DNA of 64,000 nt, taken from contig NC_011891.1 of NCBI RefSeq assembly GCF_000022145.1, positions 248,001-312,000 on the forward strand, written 5' to 3'. Under the pieces are notes generated by a model. The model was not told the origin of the DNA. It saw nothing but the letters and a program-made list of their open reading frames with translations, and made no database searches. This DNA is from Anaeromyxobacter dehalogenans 2CP-1 (GTDB lineage: Bacteria; Myxococcota; Myxococcia; Myxococcales; Anaeromyxobacteraceae). A program made the translations under genes and the position numbers. Shown here piece after piece: positions 11,515 to 24,730 of this stretch (positions are counted from its first letter, which is position 1; every line of letters starts with the position of its first letter).

Positions 11515-11533
11515 CCCCTGACCCCTGACCCCC

Positions 11534-11547
11534 GACCCGGAGTCATT
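11534..11547 (+). repeat. REP-like repeat copy 1 (left flank of RAYT gene)
   Basis: GACCCGGAGTCATT. Together with the oppositely oriented copy at 12896-12913 it brackets the Y1 transposase gene. One mismatch to the commonest 14-mer of the family. Confidence 0.65.
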
Positions 11548-11568
11548 GCGCCGGGAACGGAGATGACG

Positions 11569-11891: not shown

Positions 11892-12788
11892 TCAGCCGAA
11901 GCTGGCGCAGGGAACGCCGTGCAGGACGCGCAGCAGGTACGTGCCGGCCGGGAAGATCACGCCGGAGCGCCCGGCGCGTCGCGCGCGCCAAGCCTCCCGG
12001 TACGCGCGCAGGAACCCGACCAGCCGCCCGATCGCCTCGATCCGCTTCCAGCGGTCTCGCGCCGCCACCCGTGGGCGGAGGCCGCGCATCGGCGGCGGCT
12101 CCGGCGGGCGGGCCGTGGGTCGCTGCGCGAGCACCCGCCGCGCGCCCACGAACCCGATGCCGGCCAGCGCGTGCGCGTGGGCGACCTCGCGCTCCCGCGC
12201 CGCGATCGCGTCGACGAGCAGCGAGCGGAACGCATCCGCAGGCTCGAACCCAGGCGGCGGCACGAGCGCGAGCTCGACGACTTCCGGCATCGGACCGCTC
12301 CGGCGGAAGAACCCATCCGGTCGCGTCACCCGTAACGCGCCCGCGCCGATCGACTCCGGCGCCGACCAGAGCCCTGGCCACTCCTTGGCGGAGGCGACCA
12401 GCCCGGCCTTCACCGGGTTCGTGAGGACGTAGGCGACCTTCTCGAGCACGTCCTGCGGCGACGAGAGCGCCACGGCGCTGTAGCTGCCCGGCGCCCAGAA
12501 CGACTCCCAGCGGCCGAGCGAGGCGTTCACCGCCCGGGCCACGAGCGCGTTCAGGTACTGCTCGAACTCTGGCAGGCGCGCGTTCACGTCGGTGACGACC
12601 AGGTGGAAGTGGTTCGACATCACGCAGAACGCGTGCACCAGGATCCCGTACCGCCGCGCGGCGACGGCGAGCACGTACAGGAAGATCGCGTTCGTCGCGG
12701 GTGAGGGGCGGAGCAGGAACATGCGCTGGAAGCAGCGGCGCGTCACGAGGTACGTGACGCCCGGGAGGACCTGACGCGGAGCGGTCAT
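11892..12788 (-). mobile_element. REP-associated tyrosine transposase-like protein (RAYT, Y1_Tnp)
   Basis: 298-residue protein of the IS200/IS605-related Y1 transposase superfamily. It carries the HUH metal-binding motif as NHFHLVV (His60-Phe-His62) and the RAYT hallmark YVLTNPVKAGLV. Such proteins nick single-stranded REP hairpins and are thought to spread them. The C-terminal ~110 residues are a basic extension without a clear family. The gene is flanked by inverted copies of a short repeat that recurs elsewhere in this window, and no second ORF or IS ends are seen, which favours a domesticated RAYT over a complete insertion sequence. Confidence 0.85.
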
Positions 12789-12895: not shown

Positions 12896-12913
12896 AATGC
12901 ACTACTCTGGGTC
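12896..12913 (-). repeat. REP-like repeat copy 2 (right flank of RAYT gene)
   Basis: AAT, four extra bases, then ACTCTGGGTC: the inverse orientation of copy 1, interrupted by a small insertion. Lies just upstream of the epimerase start. Confidence 0.55.
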
Positions 12914-12935
12914 CGGAACTGCGACAGGAACGTCC

Positions 12936-13910
12936 ATGCCCCCGACCCTGGTCACCGGCGCCGCCGGCTTCATCGGATTCCACCTCGCGAAGGCGCTGCT
13001 CGACCGCGGCGACGTGGTGCTCGGCGTCGACTCGATGGTGCCGTACTACGACGTCCGCCTGAAGGAGGCGCGCCTGGCCCAGCTCACCGGGCGCCCCGGG
13101 TTCACGTTCGAGCGGCTGGATCTCGCCGATCGCGAGGCGACCTCCCGTCTGTTCGAGCGCGGCGGCTTCGGCGCGGTCGTGCACCTCGCCGCCCAGCCCG
13201 GCGTGCGCTACTCGCTCGAGAACCCGCACGCCTACGTGGACGCGAACGTCACCGGGTTCCTCGACGTGCTCGAGGGCTGCCGCCGGCACCCGGTCCGCCA
13301 CCTGGTCTACGCGTCCTCGAGCTCCGTCTACGGCGGCAACACCAAGGTGCCGTTCGCGGTCACCGACAACGTCGATCACCCGGTCAGCCTGTACGCCGCC
13401 ACCAAGAAGGCGAACGAGCTGATGGCGTACACGTACAGCCACCTGTTCGCGATCCCCGCCACGGGGCTCCGCTTCTTCACCGTGTACGGTCCGTGGGGAC
13501 GTCCGGACATGGCGCCCATGCTCTTCGCCCGCGCCATCCTCGAGGGCCAGCCGATCAAGGTCTTCAACCACGGGCAGATGCGGCGCGACTTCACCTACGT
13601 GGACGACATCGTCGAGGGCGTCATCCGCGTCCTCGACCGCCCGCCCGCGGCGGGCGTGGTGCCGCCGCACCGGCTCTACAACATCGGCAACAGCCAGCCC
13701 GTCGAGCTGCTCCGCTTCATCGACGTGATGGAGGCGGCGCTCGGGAAGAAGGCGGTCCGCGAGCTCCTGCCGATGCAGCCCGGCGACGTCCCGGCCACGT
13801 TCGCCGACGTGTCGGATCTGGAGCGGGACGTCGGCTTCCGGCCAGCGACCTCCATCGAGGAGGGCGTGCGACGCTTCGTGGCCTGGTACCGGGCGTACCA
13901 CCGCGCGTGA
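12936..13910 (+). CDS. NAD-dependent sugar epimerase, probably UDP-glucuronate 4-epimerase
   Basis: Extended short-chain dehydrogenase of 324 residues: NAD-binding GAAGFIGFH near the N-terminus, [11 protein letters not shown], the catalytic SSSSVYGGN serine region, and YAATKK with the Tyr-x-x-x-Lys pair. [18 protein letters not shown] and [13 protein letters not shown] are characteristic of the UDP-glucuronate/UDP-glucose 4-epimerase group (LpsL/GalE-like). It would supply a nucleotide sugar for polysaccharide or LPS assembly, in keeping with the WecG-type transferase gene 97 bp downstream. Exact substrate not proven by sequence. Confidence 0.85.
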
Positions 13911-14007: not shown

Positions 14008-14961
14008 GTGCAGGAGGTGCCGCCGCCCGTCCCTGCCGTCCGCCGTTCCTCCGGTCGAGACCCTTCCTATCCAGCCGTCGATTGCCTGGGCGTGAAGGTC
14101 GCGCGCCTGGAGTGGCCGGACCTCCTCGAGTGGTTCCTCCGCCGCCTCGACGCGCCGGCGCCCGTCCGGTGCGGCACGCTCGTGCTGGCGAACGCGCACA
14201 CGCTCAACGTCGCGTCCGCGAACCCCGCGGCGCGCGAGGCGATCCGCGCGGCGACCCTGGTCCTGAACGACGGCGTCGGGCTCGACGTGTACGCGCGGCT
14301 CCGCACCGGCGCGCCGTTTCCGTACAACTTCGCCGGCACCGATCTCGTGCCGCGCCTGCTGGGGGAGTGTGCCCGGCGCGGCCTGCCGCTGCGCGTCTTC
14401 CTGTACGGGGCGCGCCCCGGCCGCGCGGCGGAGGCGGCGCGACGCATCGAGCGCGCGTACGCACCGGTGAAGGTGATCGGCGCACTGGACGGCCACGAGA
14501 CGACCGGCGACGAGGCACGCCGGGCCATCGACGCCGCCCACCCCGACCTGCTGCTCGTCGGGCTCGGGAACCCGCGGCAGGAGGAGTGGCTGGCGGCGAA
14601 CGCGCCGGGGCTCCGGGCGCGCATCGCGATCGGGGTCGGGGCGCTGTTCGACTTCATGAGCGGGAGCGTCGTGCGCGCCCCCCGCGCGGTGCGCGCGATG
14701 CGCCTCGAGTGGATGTTCCGCCTCGCCCTGGAGCCCCGCCGGCTCTTCCGCCGGTACGTGGTCGGGGTGCCGCTCTTCCTCTGGCGAACCCTCACCTACC
14801 GCCCCGAGCCGGTACCCTCCCACCCGACCCAGAGTCCTTTGGGCGCCGGAAAGCCCCGGATCGGGCCACGCAACGACTCCGGGTTCGGCGCGGTGCTCGC
14901 GAGGACGGGGACCGACGCGAAGGACTCCGGGTCGGGGGTGAGGATGGGGTCGGCGGGCTGA
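14008..14961 (+). CDS. WecG/TagA/CpsF-family glycosyltransferase with repeat-derived C-terminal tail
   Basis: GT26-family transferase that adds an amino-sugar or related residue to an undecaprenyl-linked intermediate in surface polysaccharide synthesis. Family blocks: LVLANAHTLNVASANP, LNDGVGLDVYARL, NFAGTDLVPRLL, LLVGLGNPRQEEWLAAN and GVGALFDFMSGSVVRAP. The recognisable domain ends near residue 268 (FLWRTLTYRP). The last ~48 residues are encoded by DNA carrying three copies of the REP-like repeat and look unrelated to the family. Starts at GTG; an upstream GGCGGCCCACC gives no clear ribosome-binding site. Confidence 0.85.
   Translation: MQEVPPPVPAVRRSSGRDPSYPAVDCLGVKVARLEWPDLLEWFLRRLDAPAPVRCGTLVLANAHTLNVASANPAAREAIRAATLVLNDGVGLDVYARLRTGAPFPYNFAGTDLVPRLLGECARRGLPLRVFLYGARPGRAAEAARRIERAYAPVKVIGALDGHETTGDEARRAIDAAHPDLLLVGLGNPRQEEWLAANAPGLRARIAIGVGALFDFMSGSVVRAPRAVRAMRLEWMFRLALEPRRLFRRYVVGVPLFLWRTLTYRPEPVPSHPTQSPLGAGKPRIGPRNDSGFGAVLARTGTDAKDSGSGVRMGSAG
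14826..14839 (+). repeat. REP-like repeat copy 3, inside the 3' end of the WecG-type gene
   Basis: GACCCAGAGTCCTT, one mismatch to the commonest 14-mer. Inverted relative to the next two copies. Confidence 0.65.
14872..14886 (-). repeat. REP-like repeat copy 4
   Basis: AACGACTCCGGGTTC, a degenerate copy opposite in orientation to copy 3; the pair resembles a BIME-type inverted doublet. Confidence 0.45.
14920..14933 (-). repeat. REP-like repeat copy 5
   Basis: AAGGACTCCGGGTC, same orientation as copy 4, inside the coding tail of the WecG-type gene. Confidence 0.55.
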
Positions 14962-15027: not shown

Positions 15028-15960
15028 GTGATCCGTCCGCTGACCGCGCGTGTGTCCGCAGTGCTCCTGGTGGCGCTCTGGAGCGCGTCCGCCGCGGTCG
15101 CGGCCGAGCCGCTCCTCGTCCCGGGGCGGATGGGCTACAACGCGCTCCCTGCGCTCCGGAACGTGGACCCCGTCGTCGGGAACCGGACCGAGCTGGAGCT
15201 GTCCGCCACCGCCCAGCTCGCGGGCCTCGGCGCGCAGGACGCGGCGGGGACGCCCTACGTCCGCCTCACCGTGCCGTTCCGCGAGGTGGCCGCGCTGGAG
15301 CTGGACGGGACGCCCTTCGAGCTGTTCCGCACGTCGGCCGCGACGGGGGAGCGGATCGGCGCGCGCGTGCGCTCGGGCGCGTCGCCGGGCGACCTCCGCG
15401 CCGGCGCGCGGTTCCTGGTGCTCGAGGAGCGGGGGAAGCGGCCGGCGCTGGGCCTGCGCCTGGTGGTGAAGTCCACCTCGGGCAAGGACCGTGGCGCGCG
15501 CCGCTTCACCAACGCGCCGGGGTACGTGTTCGACGTGCTCGCCGGGAAGGACCTCGCGGCGGCGGGTCCGGTCCGCCTGCGGGCGCTCGCGAAGCTCGGC
15601 TTCCTCGCCTGGCAGGTGGCGGACGGCCGGCAGGACGACGCGCTCGACTACGGGGCGACGCTGCGCGCCGCGTTCGCAAGCGGCGTCGCGCTCTCGGGCG
15701 AGTGGCGCGGCTACGCCGGCTGGCGCGGCGACGATCGCCCGATGGTGCTGGGCCTCACCGCCGACGTTCCGGCCGGCTCGCGGGTGCTGCTGCGCGCGTC
15801 CGCCGACCGCGGCCTGACCTCCGACGCGCCGCCGCTCGACGTGCGGCTCGGCGTGGTCCTGTTCCTGGACGCGCCCATGGCCCGCGACCGCGCCGCCGGC
15901 CAGGCCGACCCGCGCCTGGCCTCGGGCGCGCGCCCGCGGCGGCAGCCCGGGCCGCGGTGA
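15028..15960 (+). CDS. Exported protein of unknown function, possibly a beta-barrel
   Basis: 310 residues, GTG start. A signal peptide is clear (hydrophobic core about residues 8-22, likely cleavage after AVA). The mature part alternates hydrophobic and polar residues and contains many short strand-like segments (e.g. LRLVVKSTSG, VRLRALAKLGFLAWQV, VLLRASADRGL), suggesting an outer-membrane or periplasmic beta-rich protein. No catalytic motif. The stop is immediately adjacent to the stop of the convergent phosphatase-family gene (shared TGATCA). Family not recognised. Confidence 0.75.
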   Translation: MIRPLTARVSAVLLVALWSASAAVAAEPLLVPGRMGYNALPALRNVDPVVGNRTELELSATAQLAGLGAQDAAGTPYVRLTVPFREVAALELDGTPFELFRTSAATGERIGARVRSGASPGDLRAGARFLVLEERGKRPALGLRLVVKSTSGKDRGARRFTNAPGYVFDVLAGKDLAAAGPVRLRALAKLGFLAWQVADGRQDDALDYGATLRAAFASGVALSGEWRGYAGWRGDDRPMVLGLTADVPAGSRVLLRASADRGLTSDAPPLDVRLGVVLFLDAPMARDRAAGQADPRLASGARPRRQPGPR

Positions 15961-22431: not shown

Positions 22432-23037
22432 ATGTCCCCGCGCGAGAAGCTGGTCGAGACCGCCGCAGCGCTGTTCTACCGGCACGGCTGCCACGCCGTG
22501 GGGATCGACACGGTCCTCGCCGAGGCAGGCGTGGCCAAGATGACCCTGTACCGGCACTTCCGCTCGAAGGACGAGCTGGTGCTCGCAGCGCTGCGCCGGA
22601 TGGACGAGCGGTTCCGCAACGCGTTCATGGCCGCGGTGGAGCGGGCGTCGGACACGCCGGCGGGCCGGCTCGACGCGCTGTTCGACGTGGTGCGCGAGTG
22701 GGTTCGCGGGAAGGACTTCTACGGCTGCCCGTTCATCAACGTCACGGCCGAGTTCGCCGCGCACGACGACCCGGTCCACGTCGCGGCGGCCGAGCACAAG
22801 CGGCTCGCGCTCGAGTACATCGAGCGGCTCGCCGCCGAGGCGGGCGCTGCCGACGCGCGCGGGCTGGCCCGGGCGCTGAAGGTGCTCCTGGAGGGCTGCA
22901 CGGTGCTCGCGCAGGTCACCGGTCAACCCGGGTTCGTGGACGACGCGCAGCAGGCCGCGCGGCTGGTGCTCCAGGAGGGGCTCCGAGGCGCCGTGCCCGC
23001 GCGCGCGCCGCGCCGGCCGCGCCGCGCGCGGACGTGA
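22432..23037 (+). CDS. TetR/AcrR-family transcriptional regulator
   Basis: 201-residue DNA-binding repressor. The N-terminal helix-turn-helix is clear: LVETAAALFYRHGCHAVGIDTVL followed by AGVAKMTLYRHFRSKDELV. The C-terminal ligand domain has one cysteine-containing stretch (YGCPFINV), common in the subgroup that controls detoxification genes. It lies divergent from the DsrE-like gene, and the palindrome at 22320-22335 is its likely binding site. The protein ends in a basic Arg/Pro-rich tail. Ligand unknown. Confidence 0.9.
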   Translation: MSPREKLVETAAALFYRHGCHAVGIDTVLAEAGVAKMTLYRHFRSKDELVLAALRRMDERFRNAFMAAVERASDTPAGRLDALFDVVREWVRGKDFYGCPFINVTAEFAAHDDPVHVAAAEHKRLALEYIERLAAEAGAADARGLARALKVLLEGCTVLAQVTGQPGFVDDAQQAARLVLQEGLRGAVPARAPRRPRRART

Positions 23038-23051
23038 GCTCCTCCCCGCTC

Positions 23052-23118
23052 CTTCGGTCGTTCGTGTTCGGTCGTTCGGTCGTTTCCCGTCGTTTCCCGA
23101 CCTCGTTCGTTTCCCGAC
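23052..23118 (+). repeat. Short degenerate tandem repeats (TCGTT/TCGTTTCCCG)
   Basis: Overlapping repeats of TTCGGTCGTT followed by three TCGTTTCCCG-like units. The run lies between the TetR stop and REP-like copy 6. T-rich compared with its surroundings. Confidence 0.6.
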
Positions 23119-23129
23119 CCAGAGTCATT
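23116..23129 (+). repeat. REP-like repeat copy 6
   Basis: Exact GACCCAGAGTCATT. Paired in inverse orientation with copies 7 and 8 across the gap between the TetR and FAD-oxidoreductase genes. Confidence 0.75.
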
Positions 23130-23242
23130 GATCGCGCGGGATGCGAGATCGTCCGCGCCGCGGACCCTTTCGCGCAAGTCGGCGATCTCACGGGGCCGAA
23201 CGGCGACCCCGGGTCCGCCGGCCGTACGCAGACGCCGCGCGA

Positions 23243-23256
23243 AATGACTCTGGGTC
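23243..23256 (-). repeat. REP-like repeat copy 7
   Basis: Exact reverse complement of copy 6 (AATGACTCTGGGTC), 113 bp after it. Confidence 0.75.
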
Positions 23257-23287
23257 CGGATCGGCGCAGCGGGATGAGCGGTGCCAG

Positions 23288-23301
23288 AATGACTCTGGGT
23301 C
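23288..23301 (-). repeat. REP-like repeat copy 8
   Basis: Same exact 14-mer as copy 7, 45 bp further on and only four bases from the stop of the FAD-oxidoreductase gene. Confidence 0.75.
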
Positions 23302-23305
23302 GGGA

Positions 23306-24730
23306 TCAGAGGCCGAGGTCGCGCAGGGCGGCGCGGGCGGCCTGCCAGCCGCACATGCCGTGGACGCCCCCGCCGGGCGGGGTGGAGGCGGAGCAGAGGT
23401 AGAGCCCGGGCACGGGGGTGGACCACGGGTCGGGGGACAGCACCGGACGGGCGACGAGCTGGGCGAGCGACGCCTCCCCGCCGCCCACGTCCCCGCCGAC
23501 CAGGTTCGCGTCCTCCTGCTCGAGCGCCGGCGGACCGCGCACGGCGCGGGCCAGCACGAGCTCGCGGAACCCGGGCGCGAAGCGCTCCACCTGCGCCTCG
23601 ACCGCGTCGGTGAGGTCCCCGTCGAACCCGCGCGGCACGTGGCAGTACGCCCACGCCACGTGTCCCCCGGGCGGCGCGCGCGACGGGTCGAAGCGCGTGG
23701 GCTGCGCGAGCAGCACGAACGGCCGCGCCGGCACCTCGCCGCGCTCGACGGCCGCCTCGGCGGCGGCGATCTCCTCCAGCGTGCCGCCGAGGTGCACCGT
23801 GCCGGCGACGGCGCAGGCCGCGGCCCGCCACGGGATGGGACCGGCGAGCGCCCAGTCGAGCTTGAAGGCGCCGGGCCCGTAGCGGAACGCGGCGAGCCGC
23901 CGGGCGTAGCGCGCCGGGAGCCGCGCCCCGGCCACCCGCAGCACCTGCCGCGGCGTGAGGTCGAGCATCACCGCGCGCGCCGGCGGGAGGTCCTCGAGGC
24001 GGTGCACCTCGGCCGAGGTCGCGAGCTCGCCCCCGCGCGCCCGGAGCTCCGCGGCGAGCGCCGCCGCGATGGCGCCGGCGCCGCCCTCCGGGAACGGCCA
24101 GCCCACGGCGTGCCCGGCCGCGCCGAGCACCAGCGCGAAGGCGGCGCTGGCGGCGGCCTCCAGGGGCCGGTTCGCGTGCGCGGCGAGGCCGGCGAACAGC
24201 GCCCGCGCGCGCGGGCCGCGGAACCGGGCGCGGGCGAGGCGCGCGGCCGGGAGCAGCGCGGGCAGGCCGAAGCGCGCCAGCAGCAGCGGCCGCCGCGGGC
24301 GGTGCAGCACCGGACCGAGCACCTCCTCCAGCAGCGCGGGGAGCTCCCGCGCGAGCGGCGCGAACAGCGCCCGCCAGGCGCGGGCGTCCTCGCCGAGCGT
24401 CGCGTCGGTGGCCTCGAACCCCGGCCCGAGCAGCGCGGCGGTGCCGTCGTCGAGGGGGTGCGCGACCGCGGCGGGCGGCGAGATCCAGCGCAGGCCGTGC
24501 GCCGCGAGCGGCAGCGTGCGGAGGAACGGCGAGGCGACCGCGAGCGGGTGGACCGCCGAGCAGTGATCGTGCAGGAAGCCGGGGAGGGTGAGCGGCAGGG
24601 TGCGCGCGCCCCCGCCGGCGGTCGCCGCCGCCTCGCGCACCAGCACCCGCAGCCCGGCGCCCCCCAGCGCCACCGCGGCCGCGAGGCCGTTCGGCCCCGA
24701 GCCGACCACCACGGCGTCCGGCGTGCGCAC
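23306..24730 (-). CDS. FAD-dependent oxidoreductase of the phytoene desaturase-like family
   Basis: 474 residues, GTG start. N-terminal dinucleotide-binding VVVGSGPNGLAAAVALGGAG for FAD, then TLPGFLHDHCSAVHPLA, and the C-terminal second FAD-contact block GLYLCSASTPPGGGVHGMCG typical of COG1233 (phytoene dehydrogenase and related proteins). Members desaturate or isomerise lipids and isoprenoids, and many have no known substrate. No carotenoid genes are nearby, so a carotenoid role is not supported. Bordered at its 3' end by REP-like repeats. Confidence 0.87.
   Translation of the reverse strand: MRTPDAVVVGSGPNGLAAAVALGGAGLRVLVREAAATAGGGARTLPLTLPGFLHDHCSAVHPLAVASPFLRTLPLAAHGLRWISPPAAVAHPLDDGTAALLGPGFEATDATLGEDARAWRALFAPLARELPALLEEVLGPVLHRPRRPLLLARFGLPALLPAARLARARFRGPRARALFAGLAAHANRPLEAAASAAFALVLGAAGHAVGWPFPEGGAGAIAAALAAELRARGGELATSAEVHRLEDLPPARAVMLDLTPRQVLRVAGARLPARYARRLAAFRYGPGAFKLDWALAGPIPWRAAACAVAGTVHLGGTLEEIAAAEAAVERGEVPARPFVLLAQPTRFDPSRAPPGGHVAWAYCHVPRGFDGDLTDAVEAQVERFAPGFRELVLARAVRGPPALEQEDANLVGGDVGGGEASLAQLVARPVLSPDPWSTPVPGLYLCSASTPPGGGVHGMCGWQAARAALRDLGL

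Follow-up and report, generated by a model that had tools for sequence, protein, structure and literature searches.

A C-terminal tail carrying three REP repeats on a WecG-type glycosyltransferase of Anaeromyxobacter

Clusters of repetitive extragenic palindromic sequences (REPs) that lie inside genes have been reported to encode 43–82 residues, and REPs of the GTAG type, which are linked to tyrosine transposases, often supply stop codons (PMC3733652). In the amidase ECA3499 of E. carotovora, an ERIC (RU-1) element seems to have eliminated the normal stop codon, making the protein 35 residues longer (496 instead of 461; PMC2759123). C-terminal extension by stop loss has also been described in yeast and fly (PMC4494051). 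In the glycosyltransferase TagA, the native C-terminal appendage takes part in membrane binding and has been modelled as the source of active-site arginines (PMC6493773). The tail described below, at the end of a WecG-type glycosyltransferase, is of a kind already published, that of intragenic REPs and, probably, of stop loss of the ERIC type.

The window (the whole stretch of 64,000 nucleotides that was analysed; G+C content 76 per cent) comes from the 5.03-Mb genome of the soil bacterium Anaeromyxobacter dehalogenans 2CP-1 (G000). On its plus strand, an open reading frame at 14008–14961 encodes a protein of 317 aa that matches the WecG/TagA/CpsF family profile PF03808 with an E-value of 3.7e-50; its start codon is uncertain (GTG at 14008, GTG at 14017, or later). 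The PF03808 match covers residues 82–250 with 170.5 bits (curated cut-off 27.4), and TIGR00696 covers residues 77–252 with 125 bits (curated cut-off 69). Judged by these profiles, the product is a WecG/TagA/CpsF glycosyltransferase, for which sugar-transfer activity is predicted.

Alignment, AlphaFold2 and Foldseek delimit a conserved core with a C-terminal appendage at residues 17–266 (14056–14805, plus strand), which ends in FLWRTLTYRP (residues 257–266). The first-pass annotation had placed the end of the family core near this motif, in agreement with our alignment and with a Pfam domain that extends to residue 250. Across 29 aligned sequences, conservation reaches the appendage EPRRLFRRY....PLFLWRTLTYRP, the end of which is residue 266; W235, R238 and P243 are invariant in 29 of 29 sequences, and R244 and R249 are nearly so. 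We infer that the conserved arginines of this appendage are equivalent to those of TagA. The AlphaFold2 model built from the 29 sequences has a mean pLDDT of 84.5, with block means of 91–98 for residues 21–260 and 84 for residues 261–270 (a run with three sequences only had a pLDDT of 38 and was unusable). In Foldseek searches with this model, all 14 PDB matches at E ≤ 0.001 were TagA/TarA chains, the best of them with a TM-score of 0.92 by target length and 0.59 by query length. Because the TagA appendage serves both the membrane and the active site, the extra tail of the Anaeromyxobacter protein begins just past the working part of the enzyme.

From position 14806, the frame runs on for 51 codons to a TGA stop codon at 14959–14961, and this REP-bearing tail (14806–14961, plus strand) was delimited by the frame, by comparison with homologues and by AlphaFold2. 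A pattern search locates three REP copies in it, each 17–18 nt long: copy 1 (AAAGGACTCTGGGTCGGG) at 14823–14840 on the minus strand, copy 2 (CAACGACTCCGGGTTCG), which is degenerate and reads GGGTTCG, at 14871–14887 on the plus strand, and copy 3 (GAAGGACTCCGGGTCGGG) at 14919–14936 on the plus strand, which pairs with copy 1 in RNA folding. The tail had been anticipated as about 48 codons rich in Ser, Gly and Pro with three REP-like copies inside; the copies are there, and direct count gives 10 Gly, 6 Ser and 6 Pro among the 51 residues. The accompanying description of the tail as built from repeats holds for the three REPs and less well for the rest, as 101 of the 154 aligned tail positions lie outside the REP core, and it is fair only if the spacers are counted as part of a repeat array. 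In the AlphaFold2 model from 29 sequences, mean pLDDT values of successive ten-residue blocks from residue 271 are 50, 46, 42, 37 and 40, a low confidence that is partly due to only 3 of the 29 aligned sequences covering the tail; on this model the tail is probably disordered. Because it contains no in-frame stop codon, it is most likely translated whenever the gene is.

Genome-wide counts confirm that the tail repeats belong to a dispersed family of short palindromic REPs that occurs above chance. With up to two mismatches allowed, RAWKGACTCYGGGTCSGG has 45 matches in the 5.03 Mb of G000 and its reversed control has 2; with up to one allowed, AWKRACTCYGGGTYSGG has 27 and its reversed control 1. 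AWKRACTCYGGGTYSGG occurs 36 times in G001, 34 times in G006, 12 times in G005, and 0–6 times in each of the other five genomes of the genus, which is about the level of chance, since the reversed control totals 10 matches over all nine genomes. Within the window alone, a 15-mer at up to three mismatches occurs 19 times (13.4 expected), a count reached in 8 of 100 shuffles, and a repeat finder run on the window did not show the REP copies and listed other short matches instead. REPs were placed on a simple gene map of our own, restricted to the stretches of G000 and G001 that were fetched: 29 of the 36 placed in G000 and 35 of the 42 placed in G001 lie clear of every called gene. The seven in each genome that do touch one comprise the three in the WecG-type gene, two in a transporter gene, and two at gene ends. 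Both outer REPs of the WecG locus show the variant AAGGACTC, which none of the 25 other G000 matches has (at up to one mismatch). Elsewhere in the window, a convergent gene pair encloses three further REPs (23113–23304); judged by eye, one gene encodes a TetR-type regulator and ends at 23037, the other encodes an oxidoreductase and ends at 23306, and about 2 bp separate the last REP from the stop codon.

Upstream of the glycosyltransferase gene, the minus strand carries a RAYT-like (REP-associated tyrosine transposase) gene at 11892–12788. Its 298-aa product matches NF047646 (E = 9.8e-16; 58 bits) under the curated cut-off of 80 and PF01797 (E = 0.0013; 19.3 bits) under the cut-off of 23; a second RAYT-like copy reaches 43.8 bits against NF047646, again under the cut-off of 80. 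By these profile scores, the RAYT-like proteins are clear relatives and not certified members. Pattern search places REPs on both flanks of the gene, one 110 bp upstream (12899–12915, plus strand) and one on the other side, 17 bp past the end of the preceding gene (11531–11548, minus strand). Of the eight RAYT-like matches in G000, four are close relatives over the full length, three are weak and one is a fragment. Each of the four full-length relatives has a REP 100–110 bp upstream, and a count by hand puts 14 of the 27 G000 matches (up to one mismatch) no more than 10 kb from one of these genes. Two of the four have an inverted REP pair within 350 bp on either side; at the other two the upstream REP is present, and its inverted partner is 0.8 and 1.7 kb off. 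RAYT-like matches are found in 21 of 24 genomes of the family, with four of these having only weak ones (E of about 1e-7 to 1e-8).

Between the RAYT-like and WecG-type genes, a profile search identifies an NAD-dependent epimerase/dehydratase gene (12936–13910, plus strand). Downstream, the next open reading frame on the same strand ends at 15960 and starts at 15028 or 15061, that is, 66 or 99 bp from the stop codon of the glycosyltransferase gene; its product has no Pfam or NCBIfam match at E 0.001, and 6 of the 9 genus genomes contain matches to it. The block of RAYT-like gene, epimerase gene, WecG-type gene and this next gene is common to G000, G001 and G006. Around the relatives of the downstream gene in G004, G005 and G008, 16–17 kb contain no WecG, epimerase or RAYT match (E ≤ 1e-4).

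Orthologues of the glycosyltransferase were found in G001 (90 per cent) and in Anaeromyxobacter sp. PSR-1 (G006; 89 per cent), and in both, all three REPs are present and the tail is complete and in frame. The remaining six genomes of the genus, one of them 66 per cent complete, gave none. Across the phylum, 195 genomes searched at E ≤ 1e-35 yielded no further orthologue, with the next best proteins at 38–44 per cent identity, and homologues found in a plasmid search are all below 60 per cent identity. Thus, among the genomes searched, no orthologue without REPs was found, either with or without such a tail. Since G000, G001 and G006 share the block, the REPs and the tail, the simplest reading places the event before these lineages diverged.

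More distant homologues, at 27–42 per cent identity, end earlier. We compared 26 of them, namely 23 of the 28 non-orthologous matches of one homologue search and three from the phylum search. Left out were a match without a locus and also L017, L020, L021 and L022, which are incomplete, cut by a contig end, or weak. After the position of P266, the 26 homologues have 4–30 residues (median 14), whereas the three REP-bearing proteins have 51, 54 and 56, so the claim that the tail lacks family resemblance stood up to this comparison. Of the proteins left out, L017 and L021 also stop early, at 48 and 42 residues past the LEW motif compared with 85 here, and L020 continues up to its contig end. The REP core (up to one mismatch) is absent from within the gene in all 26 homologues, and from the gene and 200 bp on each side in 25 of them. 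In one homologue from another genus (L005; G009 contig C6), a degenerate REP-like sequence (251857–251873; L005:1505-1521) lies 2 bp past the stop codon of the WecG-type gene and about 115 bp upstream of a RAYT-like gene, an arrangement with similar neighbours and with the repeat outside the frame.

We consider it probable that the tail arose and persisted in the following way. A REP array of the kind that accompanies RAYT-like genes, with its outer copies facing each other and its middle copy degenerate, would have come to sit at the 3' end of the WecG-type gene, over the ancestral stop codon or upstream of its position. Without its stop codon, a frame in DNA of such high G+C content would run on by default to about the observed length. 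In simulated first-order Markov DNA of the window's composition, stop-free runs average 98 codons and 62 per cent of them reach 51, so that an extension of 51 codons needs no special cause once the stop codon is gone. In this way the enzyme would have been lengthened by about 50 residues that are probably disordered. Their position past the appendage that serves catalysis and membrane binding would make them tolerable, and they would be kept no less as a palindrome in DNA or RNA than as a protein sequence. Both the insertion and the lost stop codon are reconstructed from the comparison with homologues, and the tail looks like a tolerated accident, not a new function. The view of the first-pass annotation that inserted repeats removed the original stop codon and extended the protein is likely to be right in outline.

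A different order of events would have a long disordered tail native to the protein, with REPs later landing in it or overwriting parts of it and no stop codon being lost. The large share of spacer positions in the tail would fit such a history, as would the tails of 29–30 residues, unrelated to the one studied here, that the REP-less homologues L026, L027 and L030 possess. So would the distribution of the tail DNA: among the matches listed for the nine genus genomes, it appears over its full length only at the three orthologous places, and the other matches are short, several of them at other REPs. REPs in another gene point the same way. A YbfB-type transporter gene (PF06779; L114:3232-4416, G000 371231-372415) contains two in-frame REPs, 0.6–0.8 kb from a RAYT-like gene; its orthologues in G001 and G006 carry them as well. 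At the plus-strand REP, which is in a variable loop, the REP-less homologues of G017 and G002 align without loss of length. At the minus-strand REP, the repeat spells PRPGVLY where G017 has PRPGTLY, G002 is four residues shorter there, and G000 has four more residues than G001 and G006. This suggests, for a sample of one gene, that the REPs overlie native codons, with the minus-strand REP by itself possibly being one of the roughly one chance match expected per genome. Yet none of the 26 homologues compared has a tail longer than 30 residues, and, taken over its full length, the tail shows divergence like that of intergenic DNA, as detailed below. We therefore regard a native long tail as an unlikely starting point. 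In two other G000 genes, for an M16 peptidase (L121:2874-5588, minus strand) and a DUF4032 protein (L115:8986-10218, minus strand), the last residues and the stop codon fall within a REP, and both proteins end in PDPE-stop inside it.

The divergence of the tail is best seen against its surroundings. From G000, the tail differs by 14.6 per cent in both G001 and G006, the 66 nt past the stop codon by 18.2 per cent (G001) and 13.6 per cent (G006), and the adjoining 89 nt of the core by 11.2 and 6.7 per cent, respectively. Values of dN/dS in the tail and core are 0.74 and 0.14 for G000–G001, 0.47 and 0.16 for G000–G006, and 0.22 and 0.15 for the closest pair, G001–G006. Counted by codon position, G000 and G001 differ at 7/8/8 sites of the tail and 6/11/48 sites of the core (Fisher's test; P-value = 0.002); the same test gives a P-value of 0.02 for G000–G006 and a nonsignificant 0.47 for G001–G006. 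These patterns suggest that the tail drifts almost like intergenic DNA, with little constraint at the protein level. Some such constraint is possible, because the frame is kept (the length differences among the three lineages, of 6, 9 and 15 nt, are all multiples of three), dN/dS is below 1, and the closest pair has a ratio of 0.22 with a P-value of 0.47.

The REP positions may vary less than the spacers, with 4 of 53 REP positions and 19 of 101 spacer positions differing in G001, and 5 of 53 and 18 of 101 in G006, although these numbers are small. In the outer REP arms, 16 of 18 positions are paired in G000, 17 in G001 and 18 in G006. One arm pair is C–G in G000 and G–C in both G001 and G006, a single event in which the changes on both sides alter a residue (P/R and K/N). 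As RNA, the tail segment of G000 (132 nt) folds better than every one of 200 shuffles (z = −5.1), and the orthologous segments likewise beat all 200 of theirs (z = −4.1 and −5.2); a wider piece of 181 nt has a z-score of −3.7. Since arm pairing and folding hold in three genomes, the palindrome appears to be conserved no less well than the sequence of the protein.

The strong fold in all three genomes (z from −4.1 to −5.2) and the survival of pairing through a double difference could also mean that the REP hairpin acts as an RNA element, a stabiliser of the mRNA 3' end or an attenuator ahead of the downstream gene, with the tail as a by-product of ribosomes passing through it, a role that would be compatible with the insertion account. 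The short distance to the next same-strand open reading frame agrees with this, as does the position of 10 of the 29 intergenic REPs placed in G000, no more than 60 nt from a called gene's 3' end. Against it, a terminator scan found no terminator-like site, the sole match in an Rfam search was far below the gathering score, and ribosomes would unfold a hairpin inside a translated frame. Moreover, paired change is not general, since the arms of a REP doublet in G001 (260481/260612) do not match at the tag. On balance we doubt that an RNA function explains the array.

The joint difference of both outer REP arms from those of the orthologues may reflect arm-to-arm conversion. A broader version, in which Anaeromyxobacter REPs enter genes partly by overwriting, as in the transporter, and the WecG arms are kept complementary by conversion, seems to us decidedly improbable; if true, it would mean that these REPs spread by a copying process that follows or tolerates the local sequence.

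Recruitment of the tail as a functional part of the protein, for example for contact with a partner or the membrane, is a still less probable reading: frame and approximate length are preserved in three lineages, and dN/dS is below 1 and lowest in the closest pair, but the constraint is weak, disorder is predicted, and the 26 homologues offer no counterpart. That the tail is an annotation or sequence artefact, produced by a frameshift near the end of the gene, is scarcely credible, as nothing was found in its favour and the frame and tail recur in three separate genomes.

With this tail, for which we favour an origin by a REP array at the 3' end of the gene and loss of the stop codon, Anaeromyxobacter joins the bacteria in which REPs are probably translated. 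The tail also provides a multi-lineage example of small repeats lengthening a bacterial protein, in which the extension persists in three lineages while drifting almost neutrally, and it serves as a warning for annotation that tails past a family core may derive from repeats. In our literature search, no paper contained both 'Anaeromyxobacter' and 'repetitive extragenic palindromic'; papers that combine 'Anaeromyxobacter' with words beginning 'RAYT' exist.

Compared with the described systems, the core fold of the Anaeromyxobacter enzyme is like that of TagA, and the REP-bearing tail is a difference, the available text on TagA mentioning none (PMC6493773). The RAYT/REP/BIME system (PMC2817692) is similar in having RAYT genes near REPs and REP pairs in opposite orientation. 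It differs in that its genomes usually hold more than 100 copies, compared with 27–36 at up to one mismatch in G000, G001 and G006, and the RAYT-like proteins of Anaeromyxobacter fall under the curated cut-offs. The intragenic GTAG/CGTC REPs (PMC3733652) represent the same kind of event, in a paper whose text does not mention Anaeromyxobacter. Where those superfamilies have the GTAG or CGTC tag, the Anaeromyxobacter REPs vary (on the reverse strand GTAA, GTAG, GTCA, GTCG and others). Rickettsia palindromic elements, to which both PMC3733652 and PMC2759123 refer, are likewise palindromes translated in frame, and are a different element in a different lineage. The ERIC element in ECA3499 is like the WecG tail in being a small mobile repeat past a conserved domain that yields a longer enzyme (PMC2759123); at 127 bp it is longer than the REPs, and the likeness drawn here is one of event.
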